A DNA stretch of 36,375 bases from Anaerolineaceae bacterium (GCA_900299355.1 OMJR01000125.1:1-36375), one strand, 5' to 3'; counted from the stretch's first letter, positions 2,245 to 16,914 are shown. Notes: generated from the letters alone by a model not told the origin. Made by a program: numbers and translations.

Positions 2245-3423
2245 TTATTTGCGTGGGGCGTAGCGCGAGGCTTCTTTAGACAGCTGTGCATCGCGCCAGG
2301 CAAAGCGGCGGGTGTAATCGCTGGACTGGCCTTCCAGCACATCAGCGGTTACCGGCCCGAGCATGGGGGTGAACTTGAAGGCGTGGCCGCTGCCGCCGGT
2401 ACTGATAAGTAATCCCCACCGCTGGGGATGATAATCAATCCAGAAATCGCCATCGGCGGTATCGCAATAGAAGCATAAACGCTCATAGGTCTTGGGCGCG
2501 GACGCCACGGACTTTAACGATTCGGCAAAGAAGGCCCGGAAGCGTTCCTCGGTGCCGGCCGGCATGCGCCGTTCGCCGCTGGGGTCCATCGCCCACCCCG
2601 GGCCGTGGTTGGCGACCTTGACGGTGCCATCCGCCTGGGCGGGGAAACCGTACCAGCCGGTCTGCTCCACGTCGGCGGTCCAGACCGGGAAGGCCGGCGG
2701 GCGCAAGGCATCCGGATGCTCAGGCATGAAGTGCATCACCGGTTGGGCCACCGGCCACATGTATTCGCTGAGTTCGGGCAGCAACTGGGCGGTCCAGGCG
2801 CCGGCGGCCAGTACGACCACATCGGCGTGATAACGATCTCCCTTGCGGGTCTGCACGCCGGTTACGCGGCCATCGCTTTCGATGAGTTTGGCAAAGGCTG
2901 CGCCGGGCACCAGGCTGACGCCTTCGCGTTCGGCTTGCTGCGCCAGCAGGGTAACGACGCGGCCGCTGGGCGACCAGCCGCCTTGTGGGTTGTAGTAACC
3001 TTCGGGATAGTGCTCAGCCGTCCAGGCTGGAAAATGTTCGGCCAGGCTGGCGCTATCCAGGCGCTGAGTGGCGTGGCCGCGGGTGGCCAGCACTTGCAGG
3101 CTTTTGTGTTCAAAGGATGCGGGGGTCAACGGCTTGCGCGACAGATAGAGCACGCCGGTTTCGTGATAGACCGCTTCGCCAAACTCCTCGCTCCACTGTT
3201 TCCAGAGGGCAATCGAGTCTTCGGCCAGGCGGGTGTAGAGTTCGTCGCTGCCGTAATCCAGGCGTACGACCTTGCTGATGTCGGTGGAGGCGGCGTCGGG
3301 GTGCGGCAGCGGGCCGGGGTCCAGCACGGTGACGCCATGGCCGCGGCGGCGCAATTCCAGGGCGCTGCTCAGGCCAAAGGCGCCGCCACCAACGATGAGG
3401 ACGGATGATGTTGGGGCAGGCAT
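2245..3423 (-). CDS. FAD-dependent amino-acid/sarcosine-oxidase-like oxidoreductase (DAO superfamily)
   Basis: N-terminal VLIVGGGAFGLSSALELRRRGHGVTVLD Rossmann motif; DAO-type C-terminus. Confidence 0.85.
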   Translation of the reverse strand: MPAPTSSVLIVGGGAFGLSSALELRRRGHGVTVLDPGPLPHPDAASTDISKVVRLDYGSDELYTRLAEDSIALWKQWSEEFGEAVYHETGVLYLSRKPLTPASFEHKSLQVLATRGHATQRLDSASLAEHFPAWTAEHYPEGYYNPQGGWSPSGRVVTLLAQQAEREGVSLVPGAAFAKLIESDGRVTGVQTRKGDRYHADVVVLAAGAWTAQLLPELSEYMWPVAQPVMHFMPEHPDALRPPAFPVWTADVEQTGWYGFPAQADGTVKVANHGPGWAMDPSGERRMPAGTEERFRAFFAESLKSVASAPKTYERLCFYCDTADGDFWIDYHPQRWGLLISTGGSGHAFKFTPMLGPVTADVLEGQSSDYTRRFAWRDAQLSKEASRYAPRK

Positions 3424-5392: not shown

Positions 5393-5400
5393 GAGTGATG

Positions 5401-6015
5401 ATGACCTTCAAAAGGATAGTAACCTTCGTGCTGTTGGCAGTTGCCTTGCTGGCGCTAAGCGCGGTAAGCGCCGTGGCGAAGGGGCCACCCGGATATATCG
5501 ACTTTGAAGTACCCGGCATGTGGCGCAACTTCCGCTTGGAAAAACCGGACGTGCCGATGGAACTGAGCATGGGCCAATTCTCAGATTTTTTGTCACCGGT
5601 GGAAGGCCCCGATAACCTGGGCGCTGGTTTTATCATGACCCGCGGCTGGTTTGATGAGGATGGCGAAGCAGTGCCCTGGGACCGGCTGTTCTTCTTTGCT
5701 AATCTGGATGGCGACCTTGGCTATGTCTACTACTTTGGGTTGGTCAACGGCAGCAGCGAATATGATGGGCGCTGGTTCCAGGTGTCTGCGGAAGGGCAGG
5801 CGAAGTTAATTGAAGTGCTCAACGAGGAAGGTGTGCACTTTGCCGGCCTGAATCCGGGGGAATACTACACCTTTGGTGAGGGGCGATCAGCCATGGCTAC
5901 TGATCCCGTGGTGGAGGAAAGTGCGCTGGAGGTGGCTGGTCTGCCAACCGCCATGGGCGCGCTGGCCCTGGCTGGTCTTGGCCTGTGGTGGGTCTCCCGC
6001 GCTAAGCGTGACTAG
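5401..6015 (+). CDS. Secreted/anchored protein, function unknown: signal peptide and C-terminal LPTAMG-hydrophobic-RAKRD tail
   Basis: ORF 5395..6015 (GTG in track); AGGAG RBS best spaced for ATG 5401; N-terminal TFKRIVTFVLLAVALLALSAVSAVAKG; C-terminal AGLPTAMGALALAGLGLWWVSRAKRD. Confidence 0.7.
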   Translation: MTFKRIVTFVLLAVALLALSAVSAVAKGPPGYIDFEVPGMWRNFRLEKPDVPMELSMGQFSDFLSPVEGPDNLGAGFIMTRGWFDEDGEAVPWDRLFFFANLDGDLGYVYYFGLVNGSSEYDGRWFQVSAEGQAKLIEVLNEEGVHFAGLNPGEYYTFGEGRSAMATDPVVEESALEVAGLPTAMGALALAGLGLWWVSRAKRD

Positions 6016-6068: not shown

Positions 6069-6728
6069 CTAAGCGCGTCGCCACACCGCCTGGACCAGGA
6101 AATAGCCGCCAACCAGAATCAGCAGGCTGGGCCAGACCACTTCCCAATTGGCCAGCTCGCCGAGGTTGATATAGAGCCCGAAACCGATTAGGAAGATGGC
6201 TGGGAAGATGCCCCAGCTCATCCGCTCCCCATTGACGCGGATGAAGCTGAGCGCGAGGAAAGTGAGGCCCATGCCCAGGAAGAGCACGCCGCCGCCATCA
6301 ATCGGCGAGTTACCCAGCACATCGTCCACCACTGTTACCGCGGCGAGCGAGTACATCACCCCGGCGGGGATGATTGCCCACCAGTTGATGCTGTTGCGCA
6401 GGTAGGCCAGCAGGAAGGCGGTGCCCAGGAAGATAAATAACACTGCGCCGCCAATCGCACGGCCTACTGCGGGCAGGAAGAGGTTCAGCAAGCCTTCCAC
6501 CGCAAAAGCAGCCAGCACAAAAGCGATCAGGGCCAGCCACCAACTATCTAGGTCTTCCCGGTAGCGGCCATAGAAGTTCAGCGCTCCGAGTGCGAAAAGG
6601 CCGGTGAAGATCGCGTCGCCGGCGCCGCCGCCGAGGTAGCCGAGTTGTTGCAGCAGGATCAGCACGCCGGCCGCAATAAGCAGCGTGCCGAAGATTGTGC
6701 GTGAATTTTGTGTGATTTGTTTAATCAT
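6069..6728 (-). CDS. Membrane protein with LiaI/DUF5668-like repeats
   Basis: 219 aa; IFGTLLIAAGVLILLQQLGYLGG ... WPSLLILVGGYFLV. Confidence 0.7.
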   Translation of the reverse strand: MIKQITQNSRTIFGTLLIAAGVLILLQQLGYLGGGAGDAIFTGLFALGALNFYGRYREDLDSWWLALIAFVLAAFAVEGLLNLFLPAVGRAIGGAVLFIFLGTAFLLAYLRNSINWWAIIPAGVMYSLAAVTVVDDVLGNSPIDGGGVLFLGMGLTFLALSFIRVNGERMSWGIFPAIFLIGFGLYINLGELANWEVVWPSLLILVGGYFLVQAVWRRA

Positions 6729-6753: not shown

Positions 6754-7545
6754 TTAGCTAATGCGCACCGAACTCATGCCGGTGTCGATCTCAATCTGGG
6801 CTTTGTTGGCGGCGCTTTCGTAATCGGGGGAGGTGTAGTGCTTGCCATTGCGCGGGAAACGGGTGGTGTTGATCGCGATATCGGCCATGCCGGAGGACAC
6901 GCGGATGTCGGCCGCTACACCCTCGGGGACTTCGATCTCGATTGAGGAGGCACCCGAATCGATATCCACATGAGTGAAGCCCGCCTTAGCCGGCAGCACC
7001 AGCTTGGTGGAGGAAGCGCCGGTCTCCAGACGGAAATCTTTTACCTGCAGGTCGCGCAGGTCCAGCTCATTGCTGTTGGCCCCGGATTGCAGGCGCAAAC
7101 TGATCGGCACCTGGTCGGTGAGGCCGAAATCCCAGCGCAGCGGGCCGCCGCCCCACATCCACGGAAAGGCCATCCAGGCCTCCGAACTGGTGCTGATCTT
7201 CAAGATCGCTTTTCCCTTGCTTTGGCGGCTGTGGATGTCCACAGCGCTGAAATCGCCTTCGACCAGTTGGCCGAACGGGGCGGGACCGCGCAGGATGAGC
7301 TGGCCAGCGCCGTGTTCGATGCTGACGTTGGCTTGGCTGGCGTCTTCCAGCGGGAGGGCAATGTGCTCCATGTCCGCCGTTGCGCCACCCAGGCGCGGCC
7401 CGAGCAAGACAAAGATGCCCAAGAGAATAAGCAGGAAAGGCCAGATCATCGCGAAGTTGAAATCGATCAGGCCCAGGTTGTCAGCCAGGAAGAGGCCGCC
7501 GACACCGATCAGTACCAGGCCCCAGAACAATCTCCATGTTGTCAT
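6754..7545 (-). CDS. LiaF-like membrane protein: N-terminal TM region plus C-terminal adhesin/toast-rack-like beta domain
   Basis: 263 aa; FWGLVLIGVGGLFLADNLGLIDFNFAMIWPFLLILLGIFVLL then repetitive GASSTKLVLPAKAGFTHVDIDSGASSIEIEVPEGVAADIRVSSGMADIAI. Confidence 0.75.
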   Translation of the reverse strand: MTTWRLFWGLVLIGVGGLFLADNLGLIDFNFAMIWPFLLILLGIFVLLGPRLGGATADMEHIALPLEDASQANVSIEHGAGQLILRGPAPFGQLVEGDFSAVDIHSRQSKGKAILKISTSSEAWMAFPWMWGGGPLRWDFGLTDQVPISLRLQSGANSNELDLRDLQVKDFRLETGASSTKLVLPAKAGFTHVDIDSGASSIEIEVPEGVAADIRVSSGMADIAINTTRFPRNGKHYTSPDYESAANKAQIEIDTGMSSVRIS

Positions 7546-7636: not shown

Positions 7637-8281
7637 TTAGCCGCGGCGCAGCGAGGAAACCAGGAAATACAAGCCGCCCAGCACCAGCAGCGAAGGCCAG
7701 ATGTAATCCCATAAAGCTTGCTGGCTGAAGCCGATAAAGAGGCCAAACACCAGCAAGGGCAGGGCTGGGAAGATGGCCCAATTCATACGTTCGCCATCCA
7801 CCGTAAGGAAATTGATGATCAGAAAGGTCAAGCCCATGCCGATGAAAAGGATGCCAGCGCTATCAAAGGGCAGAGGGTCGACGAGTTCCTCGACTACCAG
7901 CATGGTGGTCAGCGAAAACAGCACGCCGCCGGGAATCAGGGCCCACCACATCGCACGGTCGATCGCGAATACCACCAGGAAGGCCAGTGCTATTACACCC
8001 AAGAGCAGCGCGCCGCCGAATTGATCAGCGAAGCCCAGCAGGGCCATCTCCGAGACTTTGAGCAGGGTCAGTGCGAGCAGAATGAGACCGGCGAGGGCGG
8101 CCCACCAGCGGCGGCGGTCCTGGGCGAAGCTGCTTAGAAAGAAGATCATGCCTACGCCAAATGAGAGGGCAAAAATTGGGTCCTCTAATTCGCCGCTGAT
8201 CAGATTCAGTTCCTGCAAGCCAAAGAGTACGCCAGCCAAAATGAGTAATAAACCAATCACGGTGCGCGGGTCGCGTCGCAT
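7637..8281 (-). CDS. Membrane protein, paralogue of 6069..6728 (LiaI/DUF5668-like)
   Basis: 214 aa; TVIGLLLILAGVLFGLQELNLISG; SAGILFIGMGLTFLIINFLTVDGERMNWAIFPALPLLVFGLFI matches GGGVLFLGMGLTFLALSFIRVNGERMSWGIFPAIFLIGFGLYI. Confidence 0.75.
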   Translation of the reverse strand: MRRDPRTVIGLLLILAGVLFGLQELNLISGELEDPIFALSFGVGMIFFLSSFAQDRRRWWAALAGLILLALTLLKVSEMALLGFADQFGGALLLGVIALAFLVVFAIDRAMWWALIPGGVLFSLTTMLVVEELVDPLPFDSAGILFIGMGLTFLIINFLTVDGERMNWAIFPALPLLVFGLFIGFSQQALWDYIWPSLLVLGGLYFLVSSLRRG

Positions 8282-8340: not shown

Positions 8341-9090
8341 TCACCGAACCCGGCCCCAGGCGTAATGCGTGGGCACATGCAACACGCGCTCGCCGCTCTG
8401 CCAGGCTTGCCGGTCGCGCTCCAGGAGCCCTTCGAGCGTGGCGGAATCGACGAAATCCTGCAGGTCATCGCGTAGCACGGAGTGCTCGATTTCAAGATCT
8501 TCCTCGGACAGTTGGGCAGTGGAAAGCATTTCCATCCGGCCGGTTTCGATCTCGGCCAGACCGGCGGCGCGGAAGAGTTGGCCCAGCCGCGCCCCCAGCA
8601 TCGGATCGGCGCCGCGGGCACGCAGCGCGGCGGTTTGCAGCGCGCCCAGTTCGGCCAAGTTGTCGGGCTTATCGATGCGTGCGCCATAGTCGGGCTCCGC
8701 GAAGGCGGCCACCACTCCGCCTGGGCAGGTGACGCGCGCTATTTCGGCTAACGCTGCGGCGGGATCCGCCAGCCAGAGCAGCACATAATGCGTGAAGGTC
8801 AGGTCGAAGGAATTATCGGGAAAGGGTAGCTGATGGGCATCGCCGCCCGCCAGGCGTAGCTGCGGCTGCTGGCGGCGGGCAATGCGCAGAGAGGGCAGAT
8901 CAATGTCCAGGCCGACGGCGGCGTTTGGGGCGGGGTAGGCGCCTAAGACAGCGCCCGTGCCGCTGCCGACCTCCAGGATCGGGCTGCGGGGTGTGATGCG
9001 AGCCTGCACGAAAAGGTGGTCGCGCAGGCGGGCAGTCCAGGTGGCCTGTTGGCGATAGCGGCGGTGGAGGGCGTCAAAGCTGGGGGGCAT
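8341..9090 (-). CDS. Class I SAM-dependent methyltransferase
   Basis: 249 aa; ILEVGSGTGAVLGAYP, VGLDIDLPSLRIARR, LAGGDAHQLPFPDNSFDLTFTHYVLLWL. Confidence 0.9.
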   Translation of the reverse strand: MPPSFDALHRRYRQQATWTARLRDHLFVQARITPRSPILEVGSGTGAVLGAYPAPNAAVGLDIDLPSLRIARRQQPQLRLAGGDAHQLPFPDNSFDLTFTHYVLLWLADPAAALAEIARVTCPGGVVAAFAEPDYGARIDKPDNLAELGALQTAALRARGADPMLGARLGQLFRAAGLAEIETGRMEMLSTAQLSEEDLEIEHSVLRDDLQDFVDSATLEGLLERDRQAWQSGERVLHVPTHYAWGRVR

Positions 9091-9096
9091 GGGGCG

Positions 9097-9126
9097 ATTA
9101 TACGGCGGGTCACCAAGCGGTATACT
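9097..9126. promoter_or_regulatory. Back-to-back divergent -10 boxes in a 41-bp intergenic region
   Basis: TATAAT on minus (9097-9102) 6 nt from ATG 9090; TATACT on plus (9121-9126) 5 nt from ATG 9132. Confidence 0.6.
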
Positions 9127-9131
9127 TAGGC

Positions 9132-10751
9132 ATGGCCCTCACATTGGAACCGCAATCGAAAACGTCTCTGACTCAATCGCTGCGCGATGGCGCGGCGGGT
9201 TTGTTTGGTGCGCTGGCGCCACGGCCGCCGGCTGCCCTCGGCTTGCACCACTACGATGTGGTGTTGCCGGATGGGCGCGAGATGCGCATCCATTTGCGCA
9301 TTGAGCCCAGCGGGGCGGGAGTGCTCTTTGTGGATGTCACCGATGTGGTGCATCTGAATCCTACTGCGGCCTATATGGCCCAGTTGGCGCTCGAAGAAGT
9401 GCCGATCGCGTCGGCGCGCGCCCAGGTGGCGGCACGCTACCAGGCGGTGCCCTTGGCCCAGATGGAACGCGAGCTGCGCCAGGTCTACGACATGATTGAG
9501 GAGTTCCGCCACCCGGAGGGCGATTGCCCCACCTGCCAATTGAGCAGCACGGTGGAGATGTCGCCGCTGTTCAGTGTGGAGGTCAACGCGCCCTACAAGG
9601 TAGATGTAGCCCTGACCTACGGCTGCAATAACGAGTGCCCGCATTGCTACAACGAGGCGGACCGGCTGGAGATGCCTTCACTGCCGCTGACCGAATGGTA
9701 TGCCGTGATCGACCGCTTGTGCGAACTGGGTGTGCCGCACCTGATCCTGACAGGCGGCGAGGCCACGCTGCATCCCGATTTGCCCGAGATCATTCGCTAT
9801 GCCGATGGCAAGGGCATGGTGGTGGGCCTCAACACGAATGGCCGGCATATCGCCCACAAGCCGTATATGGACGAGTTGGCCGCCGCGGGCCTCAACCATG
9901 TGCAGGTCACCCTGGCGTCCAATCGGGCTGAATTCCACGACGCGATGATGGGCACGACGGCCTTTGAGCAGACCGTGGCCGGGATCCAGAACGCGGTGGC
10001 CAGCAAGGTGCACGTGATTACCAACACGACCTTGATGCGCAACAACATGGATCACGCCGAGGAGATCATTGAATACATCTATGATTTGGGCATCCGCACC
10101 TTTGCGATGAACGGCATGATTTATTCCGGCGGCGGCTTTGCCCATCCGACTGCGATCCCGGAAGAAGATATGCCGCCGCTGCTGATCCGCGTGCGCGATA
10201 AAGCCAACGAACTGGGCATGCGTTTCCTGTGGTACACGCCCACCGAGTACTGCCGCATGTCGCCAGTGGAACTCGAGGTAGGCGCCAAACGCTGCAACGC
10301 GGGCGAATATTCGCTGTGCATTGAGCCCAATGGCGATGTGCTTCCCTGCCAGAGCTATTACGTCTCGGCCGGCAATATCCTGCACGACCCCTGGGAACAG
10401 ATTTGGGATGGCGAACTGTTCCGCTCGTTCCGCTACCGCGAAGAGGATCCCAAGGGATACGGCCTGCCCGAGAAATGCTGGACCTGCCCGGACCTGCCGC
10501 TATGTGGCGGCGGCTGTCGCATTGAGCGCGAGGCGCGCGACGGGGTGCGCGTAGCCAGCGACGGCGGCGGAGGCTGCTCAGGATGCAGCGGCAGCTGCGG
10601 CACCGGGGCGGCGGCCAGCCATGTGCGCAGCCATGCGCCCACCGCGGGCTACATTCCGCAGGGCGGCTTTGTGCCCAGCCCCAGCGCCACCAGCACCAAG
10701 GTACGCGCCAGCGGGGACATGAGTTTGATCGGGTTGGATGAAATTGGATGA
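9132..10751 (+). CDS. Radical SAM/SPASM-like protein with N-terminal PqqD-like region and Cys/Gly-rich C-terminal tail
   Basis: 539 aa; YGCNNECPHCYNEAD (CxxxCxxC), LILTGGEATLH, SPASM-type KRCNAGEYSLCIEPNGDVLPCQ...CWTCPDLPLCGGGC; tail GGGGCSGCSGSCGTG. Confidence 0.92.
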   Translation: MALTLEPQSKTSLTQSLRDGAAGLFGALAPRPPAALGLHHYDVVLPDGREMRIHLRIEPSGAGVLFVDVTDVVHLNPTAAYMAQLALEEVPIASARAQVAARYQAVPLAQMERELRQVYDMIEEFRHPEGDCPTCQLSSTVEMSPLFSVEVNAPYKVDVALTYGCNNECPHCYNEADRLEMPSLPLTEWYAVIDRLCELGVPHLILTGGEATLHPDLPEIIRYADGKGMVVGLNTNGRHIAHKPYMDELAAAGLNHVQVTLASNRAEFHDAMMGTTAFEQTVAGIQNAVASKVHVITNTTLMRNNMDHAEEIIEYIYDLGIRTFAMNGMIYSGGGFAHPTAIPEEDMPPLLIRVRDKANELGMRFLWYTPTEYCRMSPVELEVGAKRCNAGEYSLCIEPNGDVLPCQSYYVSAGNILHDPWEQIWDGELFRSFRYREEDPKGYGLPEKCWTCPDLPLCGGGCRIEREARDGVRVASDGGGGCSGCSGSCGTGAAASHVRSHAPTAGYIPQGGFVPSPSATSTKVRASGDMSLIGLDEIG

Positions 10752-10752
10752 G

Positions 10753-10867
10753 TCTTGAGATTGGTGATTAGAGACTGGCGATTAGTAAGTGGTAACTGGT
10801 AATTACTAATCCTGCACGGTCAATCTCCAGTCCCGTGTCTCCAATTACTAGTTACGAATTACTGTCT
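10753..10867. repeat. AT-rich imperfect inverted-repeat element (GTAACTAGTAATTGG family), copy 2
   Basis: agtaagtggtaactggtaattactaatcc ... ccaattactagttacgaattactg. Confidence 0.6.
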
Positions 10868-10872
10868 TTTCC

Positions 10873-11727
10873 ATGGACACCTTAATCTGGATCATGCTGG
10901 CCTTGTTGCTGCTGTTCAGCTGGCTGCTGCTGGCTTGGCGGCGGCTGCATGGGCGCGAGTGGCAGCCCTACGTGCCGGCGCGGGCGCGTATCGAGGGCGG
11001 CGGCGTCAAACGCGGGCTGACCCCCGCCGAGGGAGCGATTCTGCTGGGGCGGCCGCTGCACGTGGCGCTGACCCTGGTGGTCTTCGACCTGTTGCGCAAG
11101 GGCTTGGTTGTGCAGGTTGAAGATGACCCGCTCATTGTGGAGGTGGTTGAGGCCTTCCGAACTCGCGGCAGCGGGCTCAGTGCGCAGGCGCGCGGCGACC
11201 AGCGCCGCCGGGCGGCCCAGGCGCTCAGCAAGCCGATGCATATCTACGAAGAAGCCTTCATCGAAATTTTGGAAGCAAACCCTGGCCAGCCGGTGCATAC
11301 GGTTGATTACAGCATCGCTATCCAGCCGCTGTTGCGCTATGTGGCCGGGAGGGTGGGCGGCTATGACCTTGAGGACAGCCGCGCCTACTACCGCTTGATT
11401 ATCGACCGGGCCCCACGTGAGGCACGCAGCGACGGCGTGCTGACTTTTGAGCGCCAGAAAGTGTTCGACCGCAATTTTGGCTGGGTGCTGCTGGGCGATG
11501 ATTTTGAGGCCGTGCTGGACCAGGAAGATTACAGCTATGAGCCGGTGTGGTGGAGAACGTCCGATGTCCTACGTCCAACGTCTTTTGCGCGGTGGGCGCA
11601 GGATGTGTTTGCGGCGATGCAGGCGGCGGTGCCGGAGGACCTGGTGGACGCTGGTTTGCAGCGCGAAGCCGACGGTACCACGGTGACCTTGATGAACGAT
11701 ATCGCCCGGGCGACGTTTAGAGGATAG
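10873..11727 (+). CDS. DUF2207-like membrane protein, short form without the N-terminal beta domain or Cys tail
   Basis: 284 aa; TM then IEGGGVKRGLTPAEGAILLGRPLHVALTLVVFDLLRKGLVVQVEDDPLIVEVVE, matching IAGHGIKRGLTAPEAAILLEQPMDKILTMILFSVVKKGAATVTKRDPLELDIVD of 14825..16507. Confidence 0.75.
   Translation: MDTLIWIMLALLLLFSWLLLAWRRLHGREWQPYVPARARIEGGGVKRGLTPAEGAILLGRPLHVALTLVVFDLLRKGLVVQVEDDPLIVEVVEAFRTRGSGLSAQARGDQRRRAAQALSKPMHIYEEAFIEILEANPGQPVHTVDYSIAIQPLLRYVAGRVGGYDLEDSRAYYRLIIDRAPREARSDGVLTFERQKVFDRNFGWVLLGDDFEAVLDQEDYSYEPVWWRTSDVLRPTSFARWAQDVFAAMQAAVPEDLVDAGLQREADGTTVTLMNDIARATFRG
11558..11584 (+). repeat. 27-nt repeat cgtcc[g/t]atgtcctacgtccaacgtctt, copy inside a CDS
   Basis: 26/27 identical to 16514-16540. 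Confidence 0.85.
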
Positions 11728-11772
11728 GGGACTGTTTGGCAGGCGGGGTCCGTGGTCTGATTATCGTTTCAG

Positions 11773-11822
11773 GGATTTGTCGCTGCGCTTGGCAACGCCA
11801 AGCGCAACGCTCGGAATGACGA
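11773..11822 (+). repeat. Dispersed palindromic repeat: CGCT-hairpin-CGCTCGGAATGACG
   Basis: core tgcgcttggc/aac/gccaagcgca (10-bp stem) followed by acgctcggaatgacg. Confidence 0.65.
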
Positions 11823-11884
11823 CCGATAGCAAAGCAATCGGATTCAGGAGAATGCGTTTAAAAACTAACGCGTATTCTCCACAA

Positions 11885-11914
11885 AAAAGAGGACTGCAAT
11901 TGCAGTCCTCTTTT
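11885..11914. terminator. Bidirectional terminator: perfect 30-nt palindrome between convergent genes
   Basis: aaaagaggactgcaattgcagtcctctttt. Confidence 0.9.
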
Positions 11915-11916
11915 GC

Positions 11917-13077
11917 TTAGCAAGTCGGTTGGCTTTCGCCCGCTTCTTCGCGTTCGGCGGGGAACTCGTCCTCTTCTATGGGGGCGTCGATAACGGCCTG
12001 GATGGTCCACTCCGGCGGGTTGCTGATAAAGCGGCGGCGCTGGCGTTTCACATCCAGGATGTGGACGCCATCGCGCAGCGCGTCCACGGCGGCGAAGAGC
12101 ATGCGCTCCTCGTCGAGGAGGCTGACGGTCTGCAGCCATTCACCGAAGCCGGTGCGCTTGTCGGCGTCGGCTGGCAACTGGCTGAGGTCCACAACGTTGT
12201 GCGGCTGGAAATCGGCATCCAGCAGCAGCAGACGGCCCTGGCCGGTGCTGGCCACCTGGTAGCCGTCGCCCAGCCGGCGCAGGCTATGGGGGTGCAAGAG
12301 ACCCAGTTCGTGCTGGACGAACCTGCCGTCGCGCTGGATTTCGAAGGCCTCCGAGCGATGGAAGCCGGTAGCGATGATGGCGCCATCACGGCCGTAGTGC
12401 ACCCCATTGAGGTTCATCGGCGTGCGGTTGGTGGCCAGGCCCTCGCGCGGCAAATTGAGCGGGTCTGCGACCAGCTTGACTTTGGCTTCGGGGTGCTCAG
12501 CCTGCAAGGCGGCGGCCTGCTGCGGGTCACGGCTGACGTAGCTCTTGTTGGCTTTGACGTAGTTGAAGCCGTGGTCCCAGGCGTTCCACTGCCAGATGAC
12601 CTTGCCGGTAGCCAGCTCAATTTCCAGGATAGTGTCCAGGCCGGTAGAGGCGGTCAAAATCCGCTCGCCGTCCGCCGAGAATTCGATGGTGTGCAGGTAG
12701 CTCATCCAGGGGTGCTCAAAGGCTTCGCTCACCTTTTCGTCCAGGTCATGCAGCACAAAACCGGGGCCGGCGGTGTAGGCCAGTTGCCCTTCATGCAGGT
12801 CAATCTCAAACGGTTCGGTGCTATCCAGGGCCAGCTCCAGTGTGTCTTCACCGAATTCGTCGGTGTCGAGGCTGGTGAAGGCGATGTGGCCGTCGGAATA
12901 GCGCCGCTGGGAGACCTTGTCCACCGAAGTGAGGCCGTAGCTTTTATTGCCCTTGCGGCGGATGATTTTGGCGACGATGGCCAACTGGTTGAACCCCTTG
13001 ATGACGACAAAGGCGTTCAACCGCCGGCCGAGATGGTTATCGTATTCGAATTGGGATAAGTCTAAATGTTTGCTCAT
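11917..13077 (-). CDS. Beta-propeller-like protein in the radical-SAM region
   Basis: 386 aa; YLHTIEFSADGERILTASTGLDTILEIELATGKVIWQWNAWDHGFNY, HPHSLRRLGDGYQVASTGQGRLLLLD; C-terminus ESQPTC. Confidence 0.65.
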   Translation of the reverse strand: MSKHLDLSQFEYDNHLGRRLNAFVVIKGFNQLAIVAKIIRRKGNKSYGLTSVDKVSQRRYSDGHIAFTSLDTDEFGEDTLELALDSTEPFEIDLHEGQLAYTAGPGFVLHDLDEKVSEAFEHPWMSYLHTIEFSADGERILTASTGLDTILEIELATGKVIWQWNAWDHGFNYVKANKSYVSRDPQQAAALQAEHPEAKVKLVADPLNLPREGLATNRTPMNLNGVHYGRDGAIIATGFHRSEAFEIQRDGRFVQHELGLLHPHSLRRLGDGYQVASTGQGRLLLLDADFQPHNVVDLSQLPADADKRTGFGEWLQTVSLLDEERMLFAAVDALRDGVHILDVKRQRRRFISNPPEWTIQAVIDAPIEEDEFPAEREEAGESQPTC

Positions 13078-13189
13078 GTCCTATCAGTATTCCTTGAGCG
13101 GGTTAACGCCTAATTGTGAGGCGGCGTGAATGGCGTAAAGGTCGCATGAAGGGTTAATCAACCTCCTGGGTAGCTGGGCGCCGCCAAGC

Positions 13190-13238
13190 GCAAAGCCCAC
13201 CGCGGAGCCCGTCATCGGGGGGTGCCTGCCGGCTTTGC
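13190..13238. other. Long hairpin in 518-bp intergenic region, possible structured leader
   Basis: gcaaagcc (13190-13197) / ggctttgc (13231-13238) outer stem enclosing GC-rich sequence. Confidence 0.4.
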
Positions 13239-13299
13239 CTATTGAGTTGAAGTGGTTAGGATTTTTGCCCGGGCGGATGGTGCTGGCCGCGTTGGGGCG

Positions 13300-13335
13300 A
13301 AAAAAATGCGCCTCGTCCGGTAGGGGAGTCGCATT
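13300..13335 (-). terminator. Attenuator-like hairpin with T-tract downstream of a strong minus-strand promoter
   Basis: minus strand AATGCGaCTC...GAGgCGCATTTTTTT. Confidence 0.55.
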
Positions 13336-13362
13336 CGGGTTGCTGCGTGTCTATGTAAAGGA

Positions 13363-13392
13363 ATTATACCATAGGCTTACAGCTAAAGCCAA
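13363..13392 (-). promoter_or_regulatory. Sigma-70-like promoter TTGGCT-18-TATAAT reading toward the beta-propeller gene
   Basis: -10 at 13363-13368 and -35 at 13387-13392 (minus strand). Confidence 0.6.
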
Positions 13393-13435
13393 ACGCCAAT
13401 GTTGCAGATTTCATTTCTTGCCAATCGTTCTGAGA

Positions 13436-13470
13436 GGGGTTCCTTCCCTCGGCTTGGCTCGGAATGACGA
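13436..13470 (+). repeat. Degenerate copy of the ...CTCGGAATGACG intergenic repeat
   Basis: ggggttccttccctcggcttggctcggaatgacga. Confidence 0.4.
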
Positions 13471-13550
13471 GCAAGGTCACGAATACGCCAACGAAGGATA
13501 CCTGTGAAGCCTATTCGAAGGTCTGGCTTGTTTGCAGGCAGGAATATATG

Positions 13551-13593
13551 GAGGATTCTTCGGTCGCCACGATGTGGCTCCCTCAGAATGACG
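13551..13593 (+). repeat. Dispersed repeat: GATTCTTCGGT-hairpin-CCTCAGAATGACG
   Basis: gaggattcttcggtcgccacgatgtggctccctcagaatgacg; core gccac/gat/gtggc. Confidence 0.55.
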
Positions 13594-13595
13594 TA

Positions 13596-14825
13596 CTAAT
13601 GGGGCGCCTTCCCCCACACCTTCTCCCATTTATCTTTGACCAGGTTGCCCAACTTCTTCTTGGCGCCCTGGCCGGCGAGCACGTCGCCATCCGGCTCCAC
13701 GTAGAGCCAGGCCTTCCCAGTACCTGACTCAACCGCTCGTTGAGCGGTTGAGTTTGGAGTTTGCGGAGCAAACTCCATCTCACTTGGCGGATTTTCCAGC
13801 TCTAATCTAACCGGATTGAGTTCGGAGTAGGGCACCGGCAGGTCCCAAACCAGCGGCAAATCGATGTAGTCGGCGTGGTCGCGGGCGGCCTGCAGCCTAT
13901 CGGTGAGACCTTTGTCGGCCTCACTGAGCGAGACGGCGGAGACGCCGGCTTCCTTCAAGCGGTCGAGCAGTTGATTGGCTTGTTTGGCATTCTTCTCGGT
14001 CAGTGTCAAGTGTGCGGCGACGAAGATATCGTCGGCCAGCACTTCTTTCCAATAGGCGAAGCCCGCCAGGGATTCCCAGGTCTGCTTCTTGCCGGGTTGC
14101 AGCACGACCATCACGTGGTCCAGCCCCGCGTCCAGCAGGCTCTTGAGGTATTTGGTGTCGCCCAGTTTAAGGCCATCAGTAATCAGGCCGGTGACCATCC
14201 CGTGCGCTTCGCAATGGTCAAGCAGTTCGATCAGGTCTTTGCGCAAGGTCGGCTCGCCGCCGGTGAAGACCGCATGCGGCACGCCGGCCGCCCAGGCCTT
14301 ATCAATCACTGTCTTCCATTCTTCGGTGCTCAACTCTTTATCCACGCGCTTGTGGGGGGCGGCCTCGGCGGGCGCACCCTTGGGCAGCTTATAGGTCAGG
14401 GCGCAATCCAGGCGATAGGGCGCGCTGAGCGCCTCGCTGTAGGGGCGGTGGCGTTCGAAATCCAGGTAGGTTACCGGGTCCAGGTCGGGCACTTCAATCA
14501 AGGCCTGGATTTTCTCGGCGAAGGCGGCGTAATCGGCGGCCGCCTGGGATTTGCCCACCCGGTAGCGCTTGGCGATGGTCTCGGCCACCGTATCGGGCGG
14601 TGTCAGATGAATGAAATGGTAGGCGTATTCGGCGGCGGTCTGGTTGAGATGCAGCACGGTGGCGGCGTTGACCACCAGCACGGCGAAGCCATCCGGCTCC
14701 ACGCGCAGGTGCAGGCGGTAATTGAAGGGATGGCTGGGCGGGGCGGTGTAGGAATACATGCCCGGTTCCAGGCGGCTGGGCCGCTCGGGGTTTAAGCGTT
14801 CGCGCAAGCTATCTAGGATGCCCAT
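13596..14825 (-). CDS. Degenerate radical-SAM paralogue (no Fe-S cysteines) with PqqD-like N-terminal region; likely start MGILDSLRERLNPERP
   Basis: PqqD-like region FNYRLHLRVEPDGFAVLVVNAATVLHLNQTAAEYA parallels MRIHLRIEPSGAGVLFVDVTDVVHLNPTAAYMA of 9132..10751; RLDCALTYKLPKGAPAEAAPHKRVDK replaces the CxxxCxxC loop; GVPHAVFTGGEPTLRKDL retained. ATG 14823-14825 overlaps the upstream TAA (TAATG). Confidence 0.85.
   Translation of the reverse strand: MGILDSLRERLNPERPSRLEPGMYSYTAPPSHPFNYRLHLRVEPDGFAVLVVNAATVLHLNQTAAEYAYHFIHLTPPDTVAETIAKRYRVGKSQAAADYAAFAEKIQALIEVPDLDPVTYLDFERHRPYSEALSAPYRLDCALTYKLPKGAPAEAAPHKRVDKELSTEEWKTVIDKAWAAGVPHAVFTGGEPTLRKDLIELLDHCEAHGMVTGLITDGLKLGDTKYLKSLLDAGLDHVMVVLQPGKKQTWESLAGFAYWKEVLADDIFVAAHLTLTEKNAKQANQLLDRLKEAGVSAVSLSEADKGLTDRLQAARDHADYIDLPLVWDLPVPYSELNPVRLELENPPSEMEFAPQTPNSTAQRAVESGTGKAWLYVEPDGDVLAGQGAKKKLGNLVKDKWEKVWGKAPH
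13727..13777. repeat. Two adjacent perfect hairpins inserted in frame in the radical-SAM paralogue
   Basis: actcaaccgctc/gtt/gagcggttgagt (13727-13753, 12-bp stem) and tggagtttgc/gga/gcaaactcca (13755-13777, 10-bp stem). Confidence 0.85.
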
Positions 14826-16507
14826 TAGCGGCCACCTCCGGCACAAGCACAGGCGCAGCCGGCGCAGGCACAGGCGCAGCTGGAGCCGCCGCCGCTCCAT
14901 CCACCGCCGCTGCTGGAACTGGGTTTAGGCGGCGGGTTGGTGACCTTGGTGACGCCGCCGGTAAAGTCGCTCAGGCTGCCGACCACGCCGGCGGCCATGT
15001 TTTGCACGCCGCCGACCACCGAGGCGGCAAAATCACCACCCGGCAGGCTGGGCAACCCGGCGCCGCCGGTGCCGACCGAGGGCACGTTGCCGCCCGCTTT
15101 GCCGCCACCGCTGCCGCTGGTCACCGTGGACGAGCCACCGTAGCCGGGGTCGTAGCGGCCCCACCAGCGCGGCACAAAGACCGGTCCGGTGAAGACTTCG
15201 CGGCTGCGGCGGTCGTAATCCTGGTCCAGCATGGTCCATTCCAGGTTCTCTTCCAGGGCCGACATTTGCACATCCGGCGTGTCGTCGGCCTGCACCTGCT
15301 CCCAGGCTTGCTTGATGATGTTGCGGTAATACTCCACCGTTTCGCGTTTGCTGAAACCCTTCATCTTATTGGCCACGCTCTTGACCAGCGCGACCATCAT
15401 CTTTTGCAAATCCTTGCGACGCGCGGCCTTGCCCTTGCTGCGGAAGGCCTCTACGAAATCGGTTTCGTACTCGCGCAAGTTGAGCGTGTACTGGCTGGGG
15501 TCGACAATGTCCAGTTCCAGCGGGTCACGCTTGGTGACCGTGGCGGCGCCCTTCTTGACCACCGAAAACAAAATCATGGTCAGGATTTTGTCCATCGGCT
15601 GCTCGAGCAGGATGGCCGCTTCCGGGGCGGTGAGGCCGCGCTTGATGCCGTGGCCGGCAATCGAAATCTTGGGCGGCAGGTACTTGAGCCGGCGCCGGCG
15701 TTCGGCATATACCGAAATGACAATGATGCCCACAAAGAACAGGCAGAAGCAGCCGAAGACCAGGAAACCGAAAATGGCGTCCCAATCAATGTTGTAGCGC
15801 TGGCTGAAGCTGGGCTCGGTAATCGTACCGGCGGGCACGTAAGTCTTGGGGAAGGAGGCGCCGAAGAGATAGAAGCTGGAGCCGCTGGCGTTGGGGTTGC
15901 GCCAGGTATAGGTGATGCGACCCTGCTCGTCAATCGCGGTCACCGGCTGCTCGGGGAAGCCGCTGGGGGCGGGGTGCCAGCGCGGCTCGGCGGGGGTCAC
16001 ACCGGGCGGCAGATGGTAGGTGACAGTGATGTCAGCCGAGCCGTGCACGAATTCGGAGCCGAAGTAATTGGGCGCAAAGACGGCGCTGGCGTAGGCGTCG
16101 TCCTCGTTATCGGTGAAGAGCACATCGCGGATATCGGTCACCCGCATGGTGACCGTGCCGGTGTTGCCGGGGCGGATGGCGTTGCCGCCCAGGCCCAGCG
16201 CCACGCCGTAGGTGACATAGGGCGAGTCTTCGATGTTGGTGATGCGCGCGCCATCCACTTCGGCGCTGATGTTGGCGATGCTGTAATTGTTGTTGGGCAG
16301 ACCCACATCCACATAGTCAATCGCGTCGGCCCCGCCATCGTTGGCGAAGACCATCTCGTATTCGATATCCAGGGTGCCATCGCTCTGCCAGTAGAGGTCC
16401 ACCTTTTCACGTACCAGCTGGAAAGAATAGGTCTGCAAAAGCGGGGATGCGGCCGACAAAACCAACATCCCAAGCAAAACGATGACAATAAGCCAGATTC
16501 GTTTCAT
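14825..16507 (-). CDS. DUF2207-like membrane protein with Cys-Ala repeat C-terminus, candidate radical-SAM target
   Basis: Likely start MKRIWLIVIVLLGMLVLSAASPLL (ATG 16505-16507); extracytoplasmic beta region, TM, cytoplasmic region, Gly-rich linker, end GGGWSGGGSSCACACAGCACACAGGGR. Confidence 0.85.
   Translation of the reverse strand: MKRIWLIVIVLLGMLVLSAASPLLQTYSFQLVREKVDLYWQSDGTLDIEYEMVFANDGGADAIDYVDVGLPNNNYSIANISAEVDGARITNIEDSPYVTYGVALGLGGNAIRPGNTGTVTMRVTDIRDVLFTDNEDDAYASAVFAPNYFGSEFVHGSADITVTYHLPPGVTPAEPRWHPAPSGFPEQPVTAIDEQGRITYTWRNPNASGSSFYLFGASFPKTYVPAGTITEPSFSQRYNIDWDAIFGFLVFGCFCLFFVGIIVISVYAERRRRLKYLPPKISIAGHGIKRGLTAPEAAILLEQPMDKILTMILFSVVKKGAATVTKRDPLELDIVDPSQYTLNLREYETDFVEAFRSKGKAARRKDLQKMMVALVKSVANKMKGFSKRETVEYYRNIIKQAWEQVQADDTPDVQMSALEENLEWTMLDQDYDRRSREVFTGPVFVPRWWGRYDPGYGGSSTVTSGSGGGKAGGNVPSVGTGGAGLPSLPGGDFAASVVGGVQNMAAGVVGSLSDFTGGVTKVTNPPPKPSSSSGGGWSGGGSSCACACAGCACACAGGGR
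14840..14878 (-). repeat. Two near-identical 18-nt units encoding the CACACA-G-CACACA tail
   Basis: + strand ggcacaagcacaggcgca (14840-14857), gcc, ggcgcaggcacaggcgca (14861-14878). Confidence 0.8.
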
Positions 16508-16560: not shown

Positions 16561-16914
16561 TCACCACTTCGGCTTTTCGGTGAGCTGGTAGGTGGCGCCG
16601 CAGTAGGGGCATTCCACCGTGGGCGCACCGGCCACCATGTGGACGTGCTCGGGGCTGAGCGCGCCGCCGCATTGTTCACACTGCAATTTGGAGAGTTCCA
16701 CGTCGCCGGAAATATCAATGTTCAGTTTAACTTCCTGCTGGCCGGCTTCGGCGGCCTTGCGATTGGCGAACCAGATAATTACGAAACCGATGCCCACGCT
16801 GATGGCGCCAATCACAATCCAGCCCGGGCTGCCGTCCTCACTGAAGGCGCCCCATATAAAAAGCACGCCAAAGAAAATCAGAATGGCGGCGGCAATATTT
16901 CCGATGGTCTTCAT
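16561..16914 (-). CDS. Small membrane protein with C-terminal zinc-ribbon-like motif
   Basis: 117 aa; two TM segments, then LQCEQCGGALSPEHVHMVAGAPTVECPYCGATYQL (CxxC...CxxC). Confidence 0.75.
   Translation of the reverse strand: MKTIGNIAAAILIFFGVLFIWGAFSEDGSPGWIVIGAISVGIGFVIIWFANRKAAEAGQQEVKLNIDISGDVELSKLQCEQCGGALSPEHVHMVAGAPTVECPYCGATYQLTEKPKW

Follow-up and report, generated by a model that had tools for sequence, protein, structure and literature searches.

An Anaerolineales gene cassette joins a radical-SAM/SPASM enzyme and its cluster-less paralogue to a membrane protein with an invariant Cys-Ala tail

Introduction

Radical S-adenosylmethionine (radical-SAM) peptide chemistry is known mainly from small precursor peptides. 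Cys-tailed membrane proteins of the TIGR04222 type have been proposed, in the excerpts of PMC12452194 that treat them, as possible substrates of MNIO (DUF692) enzymes. Here we analyse a gene cassette that, judged against the same excerpts, has comparable ingredients: a membrane protein, a low-complexity C-terminal Cys-rich segment and a linked peptide-modifying metalloenzyme. It lies in a 36,375-nt stretch of DNA from an Anaerolineaceae bacterium (GCA_900299355.1 OMJR01000125.1:1-36375; the whole stretch is called the window below), of which the region 9132-16507 was studied. At its core are a membrane protein ending in a Cys-Ala tail (the tail protein), a radical-SAM/SPASM enzyme with its cluster ligands intact (the live enzyme) and a paralogue of that enzyme that has lost them (the dead paralogue). 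Searches of open-licence PMC papers yielded no account of a cluster-less radical-SAM partner, of this Cys-tail system, or of radical-SAM pathways to ribosomally synthesized and post-translationally modified peptides (RiPPs) in Chloroflexota.

Results

The tail protein ends in CACACAGCACACAGGGR. A survey of 400 Chloroflexota genomes, our unbiased set for the distribution of this protein, holds 27 full-length homologues besides that of the window, all alignable to the last residue (the copy in genome G232 is split over two frames). All 17 columns from C544 to R560 are invariant, against a mean column identity of 55% (alignment A1). A scan of GTDB genome contigs seeded with tail peptides gave 80 named loci, all from Chloroflexota by their record titles; because of that seed, these loci are uninformative on tail loss. 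The last 15 residues are identical across 108 proteins from 102 distinct DNA sequences, with all variation in the DNA synonymous, and upstream of these residues the tails differ solely in how many CA units precede the Gly (three in 13 proteins, four in 77, five in 17), three CA units following the Gly in every case. The corresponding DNA pattern has a single match in each of 29 of the 400 genomes (28 matches are the tail gene, and one, in G173, is an unrelated frame), and the reversed-pattern control gave 0 matches; the recurrence of the tail greatly exceeds chance. Free third codon positions combined with total amino-acid conservation rule out a spurious low-complexity repeat.

The AlphaFold2 (AF2) model of the tail protein (mean predicted local distance difference test score, pLDDT, 79.7; predicted TM-score, pTM, 0.45) is modular, with a signal helix (1-24), a β-sandwich ectodomain (29-225), one transmembrane (TM) helix (~242-274) and a cytosolic winged-helix/helical domain (285-457), followed by a variable linker, a helical TNPPP segment, a Gly/Ser linker and the disordered tail. 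Hydropathy analysis places an Arg-rich stretch immediately after the TM helix, and the predicted topology would locate the tail in the cytosol, on the same side as the enzyme. Residues 486-527 form helices in the model and have a mean major-residue frequency of 0.68, versus 0.29 in the preceding linker, making them a candidate built-in leader for recognition by a RiPP recognition element (RRE). Fold matches to the ectodomain are M1 aminopeptidase domains with low TM-scores, which we did not use as evidence.

Sequence and Pfam comparisons bear out the preliminary description of the region in assigning to the live enzyme an intact CxxxCxxC motif and SPASM-like cysteines. In the window the former is C165xxxC169xxC172, and CxxxCxxC is present in 102 of 102 live open reading frames (ORFs); the window's SPASM-type set comprises C388, C396 and C406 (C388...G401x4C406) and C449xxC452x5C458x3C462, conforming to the pattern CX9-15GX4C ... 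CX2CX5CX3C (Pfam SPASM 45.8 bits, cut-off 21.5), with the usual last SPASM Cys missing in most live members. The N-terminal PqqD match, a candidate RRE, scores 18.2 bits, under the 23.4-bit cut-off. The window's enzyme falls inside the live clade of our tree, and its nearest solved sequences are SkfB, PqqE, BlsE and SuiB.

The dead paralogue starts at a TAATG overlap behind the tail gene and retains none of the live enzyme's cluster cysteines, both as first described; in the family as a whole, CxxxCxxC is found in 0 of 93 ORFs. The protein ends before the CX2CX5CX3C region, and positions switched between live and dead members include C132D, C374S and C396Y. Dead proteins form a single clade on a long stem (SH-aLRT 100; tree of 78 sequences), with dN/dS values of 0.07-0.15 between close pairs, similar to those of the live enzyme. 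The AF2 model of the window's dead paralogue (pLDDT 85.6) finds PqqE, SuiB and SkfB as top Foldseek matches and EpeE more weakly, and includes secondary structure that matches a PqqD-like domain. Live and dead proteins alike keep RRE residues R52, H54, L55, R56, L75, N76 and A79, together with a GGE motif at 208-210, at more than 90%. The selection values, open frames, monophyly and model quality together rule out a recently decayed pseudogene and mark the dead paralogue as a pseudoenzyme of ancient origin, kept under selection and conserving its PqqD-like RRE.

Orthologues of the live enzyme (threshold >530 bits) and the tail protein occur in exactly the same 28 of the 400 genomes, and 0 of the remaining 372 hold either. 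Dead orthologues are found in 27 of these 28 genomes and in one other, G096. The association of the tail with both radical-SAM types that had been suggested from the window holds in this set, and the three genes form one genetic unit. Three apparent tails without a live enzyme were resolved in its favour: for L079 the enzyme lies on another contig, for L084 (G401) it is present and partly masked by N, and for L087 its start is visible at the contig end. Action of the live enzyme in trans, also part of the earlier proposal, is plausible because genome G400 retains the live enzyme on a different contig from the tail protein.

Weak homologues of the tail protein in G136, G382 and G011 bear a different tail, built from CHSA repeats. 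Of 298 genomes of the class, 32 contain the repeat pattern (control 0); this sister system, noted at loci L061, L062, L064 and L265-L294, belongs to other families of the class. This second tail is also near-invariant; the protein body is homologous to that of the tail protein (hhalign 99.9%, E=1.7e-31), with the tails unaligned. The genes that follow encode a live RRE-bearing radical-SAM/SPASM enzyme (CxxxCxxC in 26 of 26; PqqD 28.8 bits), a coiled-coil-like protein and a two-TM zinc-ribbon protein; neither the CHSA tail protein nor the coiled-coil-like protein matches a family model above cut-off. No radical-SAM gene is visible in 4 of 30 fetched CHSA loci, three of which break off at the tail gene or close to it, the fourth being L294. 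The change of enzyme clade between the CACACA and CHSA systems is accompanied by a change of tail. That a single scaffold should bear two different Cys tails, each near-invariant and each paired with its own enzyme clade, is our strongest reason for regarding the tail as the substrate.

The four ORFs of the preliminary description are present where it placed them and have the features it gave (Table 1). Its reading of them as two complementary two-gene pairs does not hold as the basic unit, which is a conserved five-gene cassette: the usual state is one operon in which both radical-SAM genes stand behind the tail gene. The order zinc-ribbon membrane protein, tail protein, live enzyme, dead paralogue, methyltransferase is complete in 77 of 108 loci, and the majority of departures are loci interrupted by contig ends. 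The zinc-ribbon gene lies immediately upstream of the tail gene in 104 loci, with none showing in the other 4, and the methyltransferase closes the cassette in 81 (the 77, 3 with the split layout and 1 lacking the zinc-ribbon gene). Both are conserved members that the preliminary description omitted. The inverted arrangement of the window, with tail and dead genes on one strand and the live gene and a short paralogue on the other, recurs only in L078 and L135 (3 of 108 loci in all), and G400 holds its live-short and tail-dead pairs on separate contigs. From the inverted L078 and L135 and the unlinked G400 we conclude that a single cassette came apart in the window's lineage to give the two "pairs", and that the window's layout is a lineage-specific rearrangement.

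Table 1. Features of the cassette in the window (positions counted from its first nucleotide)
Feature	Position	Strand	Evidence
Class I SAM-dependent methyltransferase, last cassette gene	8341-9090	-	Pfam Methyltransf_11 1e-20
Live radical-SAM/SPASM enzyme with putative N-terminal PqqD-like RRE	9132-10751	+	Pfam Radical_SAM 2e-26, SPASM 8e-12, PqqD 0.003
Cys-rich C-terminal extension of the live enzyme, GGGGCSGCSGSCGTGA	10563-10610	+	Split-layout lineage only
Short tail-less paralogue of the tail protein: one TM helix and cytosolic domain	10873-11727	+	tblastn; downstream of live radical-SAM gene
Dead radical-SAM paralogue: PqqD-like RRE and radical-SAM fold	13596-14822	-	Without CxxxCxxC, without SPASM Cys
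DUF2207-like membrane protein with Cys tail, 560 aa	14825-16507	-	ORF, AF2, hydropathy, hhalign
Invariant C-terminal tail CACACAGCACACAGGGR, residues 544-560, proposed core peptide	14828-14878	-	Alignment
Conserved helix and TNPPP segment, residues 486-527, candidate built-in leader	14927-15052	-	Conservation, AF2 helices
Two-TM zinc-ribbon protein, first cassette gene	16561-16914	-	TM peaks; weak zinc-ribbon matches

Two features are confined to the split-layout lineage. The short protein contains no Cys and is homologous to part of the tail protein, its cytosolic half (tblastn, 34% over 77 aa); it is a lineage-specific extra, found beside the live gene also in L078, L135 and L230. The live enzymes of the same four loci end in a conserved Cys-rich extension, GGGGCSGCSGSCGTG, absent from the other live enzymes compared, that might supply cluster ligands or act as a second substrate. 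A tail-less paralogue of the cytosolic domain also adjoins a second zinc-ribbon gene at L066 (G255:C47, locus 8794-9914), where an 18-kb stretch contains no radical-SAM match of the live/dead family.

Elsewhere in the window, 5395-6015 encodes a secreted protein ending in LPTAMGALALAGLGLWWVSRAKRD, which resembles a C-terminal sorting signal, and a LiaF-like (toast-rack) membrane protein at 6754-7545 stands between related multi-TM ORFs at 6069-6728 and 7637-8281. A role in anti-phage defence was considered and rejected, PADLOC matches being generic viperin/radical-SAM hits and one weak methyltransferase.

Discussion

We propose, with a probability of roughly 0.6, that the cassette encodes a RiPP-like system for modifying a protein tail, with the tail as core, the conserved helical segment as leader, the live enzyme as maturase and the dead paralogue as RRE partner. 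The membrane protein would bring its substrate with it, as a (CA)nGCACACAGGGR core at the cytosolic C terminus, set behind the helical segment. The live enzyme would bind that segment through its putative PqqD-like RRE and then act on the Cys-Ala core with its radical-SAM and auxiliary clusters. The likeliest products, by analogy with SkfB/CteB relatives, would be sactionine-type thioethers that span the central Gly and bond Cys sulphur to the alpha carbon of an Ala or Cys. The dead paralogue, an RRE and barrel without clusters, may assist without catalysing, either by holding the leader or by pairing with the live enzyme, and the methyltransferase and zinc-ribbon membrane protein would be accessory. 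A bolder form of the proposal envisages a new class of RiPP chemistry on protein tails, in which the live and dead proteins together make a Cys-Ala knot with multiple thioethers at the cytosolic terminus of the membrane protein, the pseudoenzyme being an obligate substrate-holding subunit and the (CHSA)n version giving the shared scaffold a modified arm of another kind; this we offer tentatively, judging the odds to be somewhat against it.

Several observations weigh against the main proposal. Exposure of the tail and its cytosolic side depend on a model with a pTM of 0.45. The tail homologues are, except in G011, all vertically related within one order, and because of this shared ancestry the co-occurrence events are not independent. 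G011 itself, a metagenome-assembled genome from another part of the phylum with 8% contamination, has the tail and live genes and no dead paralogue, and G096 has a dead paralogue alone, without tail or live orthologue (an orphan at G096:C35:2607-3737, L228, in a genome 97% complete). Tails without a radical-SAM neighbour, which would refute the earlier proposal, were sought and came to light once in each family: the CACACA locus L152 shows no radical-SAM gene on its 4-kb contig, which continues for 750 bp downstream of the tail gene, and the CHSA locus L294 has none in the 4.5 kb downstream. After nt 3330, L152 carries an unrelated methyltransferase-like ORF in the place of the radical-SAM gene. 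The CHSA loci read contain no dead paralogue. Lastly, invariance of the tail could instead reflect a metal site.

The preliminary description saw the dead protein as a possible presenter of the tail. Its standing as an ancient, selected pseudoenzyme that keeps an RRE agrees with that idea; the CHSA loci read manage without such a protein, and a dead "presenter" is therefore no general requirement. The dead paralogue could instead be a regulator or membrane tether that presents nothing, leaving the live enzyme to modify the tail alone. The CHSA loci, the tail-plus-live complement of G011 and the existence of one fast-evolving dead clade (L052, L056, L058) would all suit such a role, which we nevertheless hold to be rather unlikely given how regularly the gene is kept in tail genomes (27 of 28), under purifying selection and with its RRE signature preserved.

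We rate lower still the chance that the tail stays unmodified as a metal- or Fe-S-binding arm, with the radical-SAM pair aiding metal loading or acting on some other substrate, such as a small molecule, a cofactor or the zinc-ribbon protein. Six to eight cysteines at one-residue spacing fit metal binding, the sister tail adds a His per repeat, and a two-TM zinc-ribbon protein accompanies both systems. The intervening Ala and Gly are also invariant, however, beyond what metal binding needs; the tail changes along with the radical-SAM clade; and the predicted PqqD-like RREs on both radical-SAM proteins point to a peptide substrate. Improbable to a further degree is that the live enzyme epimerises or otherwise alters Ala, giving alternating L-Cys/D-Ala with Cys left as metal ligands or for later cross-linking: the strict Cys/Ala alternation and the presence of the epimerase EpeE among structural neighbours of the dead-paralogue fold are in keeping with it, but EpeE is a weaker match there than PqqE, SuiB or SkfB. 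Modification of the tail by an MNIO enzyme, modelled on the proposal for Cys-tailed TIGR04222 proteins, which adjoin MNIO genes in the excerpts of PMC12452194, was prompted by weak TIGR04222 matches in CHSA-tail proteins (E=4e-6, below cut-off) and in 4 of 27 CACACA proteins (best E=0.0015), and is rejected as largely refuted by a genome search in which 12 of 15 tail-bearing genomes tested, including that of the window, gave no MNIO and 3 gave weak partial matches.

Under tail modification by the live enzyme, an order-wide Anaerolineales cassette would seem to direct radical-SAM chemistry towards the C terminus of a full-sized membrane protein while retaining a cluster-less paralogue. Its carriers in the GTDB-contig scan include cultured strains (Ornatilinea apprima, Levilinea saccharolytica, Bellilinea caldifistulae and Leptolinea), in which the tail is open to direct study, and the cassette offers a model for the roles of Cys-tailed DUF2207/TIGR04222-type membrane proteins and of non-catalytic radical-SAM paralogues.

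Comparison with known systems

The scaffold itself has remote kin in DUF2207 (YciQ-type) proteins. The label "DUF2207-like" given in the preliminary description holds only in a remote sense: hhalign gives 98.3% against DUF2207 proteins of related genomes, with homology that covers the ectodomain, the TM helix and the beginning of the cytosolic domain, and in Pfam DUF2207_C reaches E=0.003 at best, in 2 of 27 members; matches to DUF2207 (PF09972/PF20990) stay below the gathering cut-off, and the window's tail protein is unlisted. Ordinary members share a Gly/Ser-rich C terminus, whereas the tails of five ordinary Chloroflexota members read contain no Cys.

The TIGR04222/MNIO proposal is the published idea that comes closest, and it differs in several respects. 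The enzyme here is a radical-SAM/SPASM protein, and there, in the excerpts of PMC12452194, an MNIO. As described in the same excerpts, the TIGR04222 tails are predicted to be periplasmic and the family is diverse, whereas the present tail is invariant and predicted to be cytosolic; nor do those excerpts describe a pseudoenzyme such as the one in our cassette. By score, the CHSA-tail protein reaches 26.6 bits against the TIGR04222 cut-off of 43 bits, and the window's tail protein has no match.

Two radical-SAM families resemble parts of the cassette by name. TIGR04347, a haloarchaeal radical-SAM-family protein named pseudo-SAM/SPASM, is separate from the dead paralogue, which scores 54.3 bits against a cut-off of 525. 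The TIGR04340 ACGX system and other Cys-repeat radical-SAM systems likewise tie a radical-SAM/SPASM protein to a short Cys-repeat motif; the CHSA enzyme scores 85 bits, far under the 400-bit cut-off, and the likeness is one of name.

In enzyme architecture the live enzyme resembles the RRE-bearing RiPP maturases SkfB, AlbA, SuiB, CteB and PqqE, with which it shares the radical-SAM core and SPASM Cys pattern and, as a candidate feature, the PqqD-like RRE. None of the best 25 matches reaches an NCBIfam equivalog cut-off (best 119 bits versus 500). What sets the Anaerolineales system apart from these maturases is the cluster-less paralogue in its cassette and a proposed substrate that forms the C terminus of a membrane protein of 560 aa.

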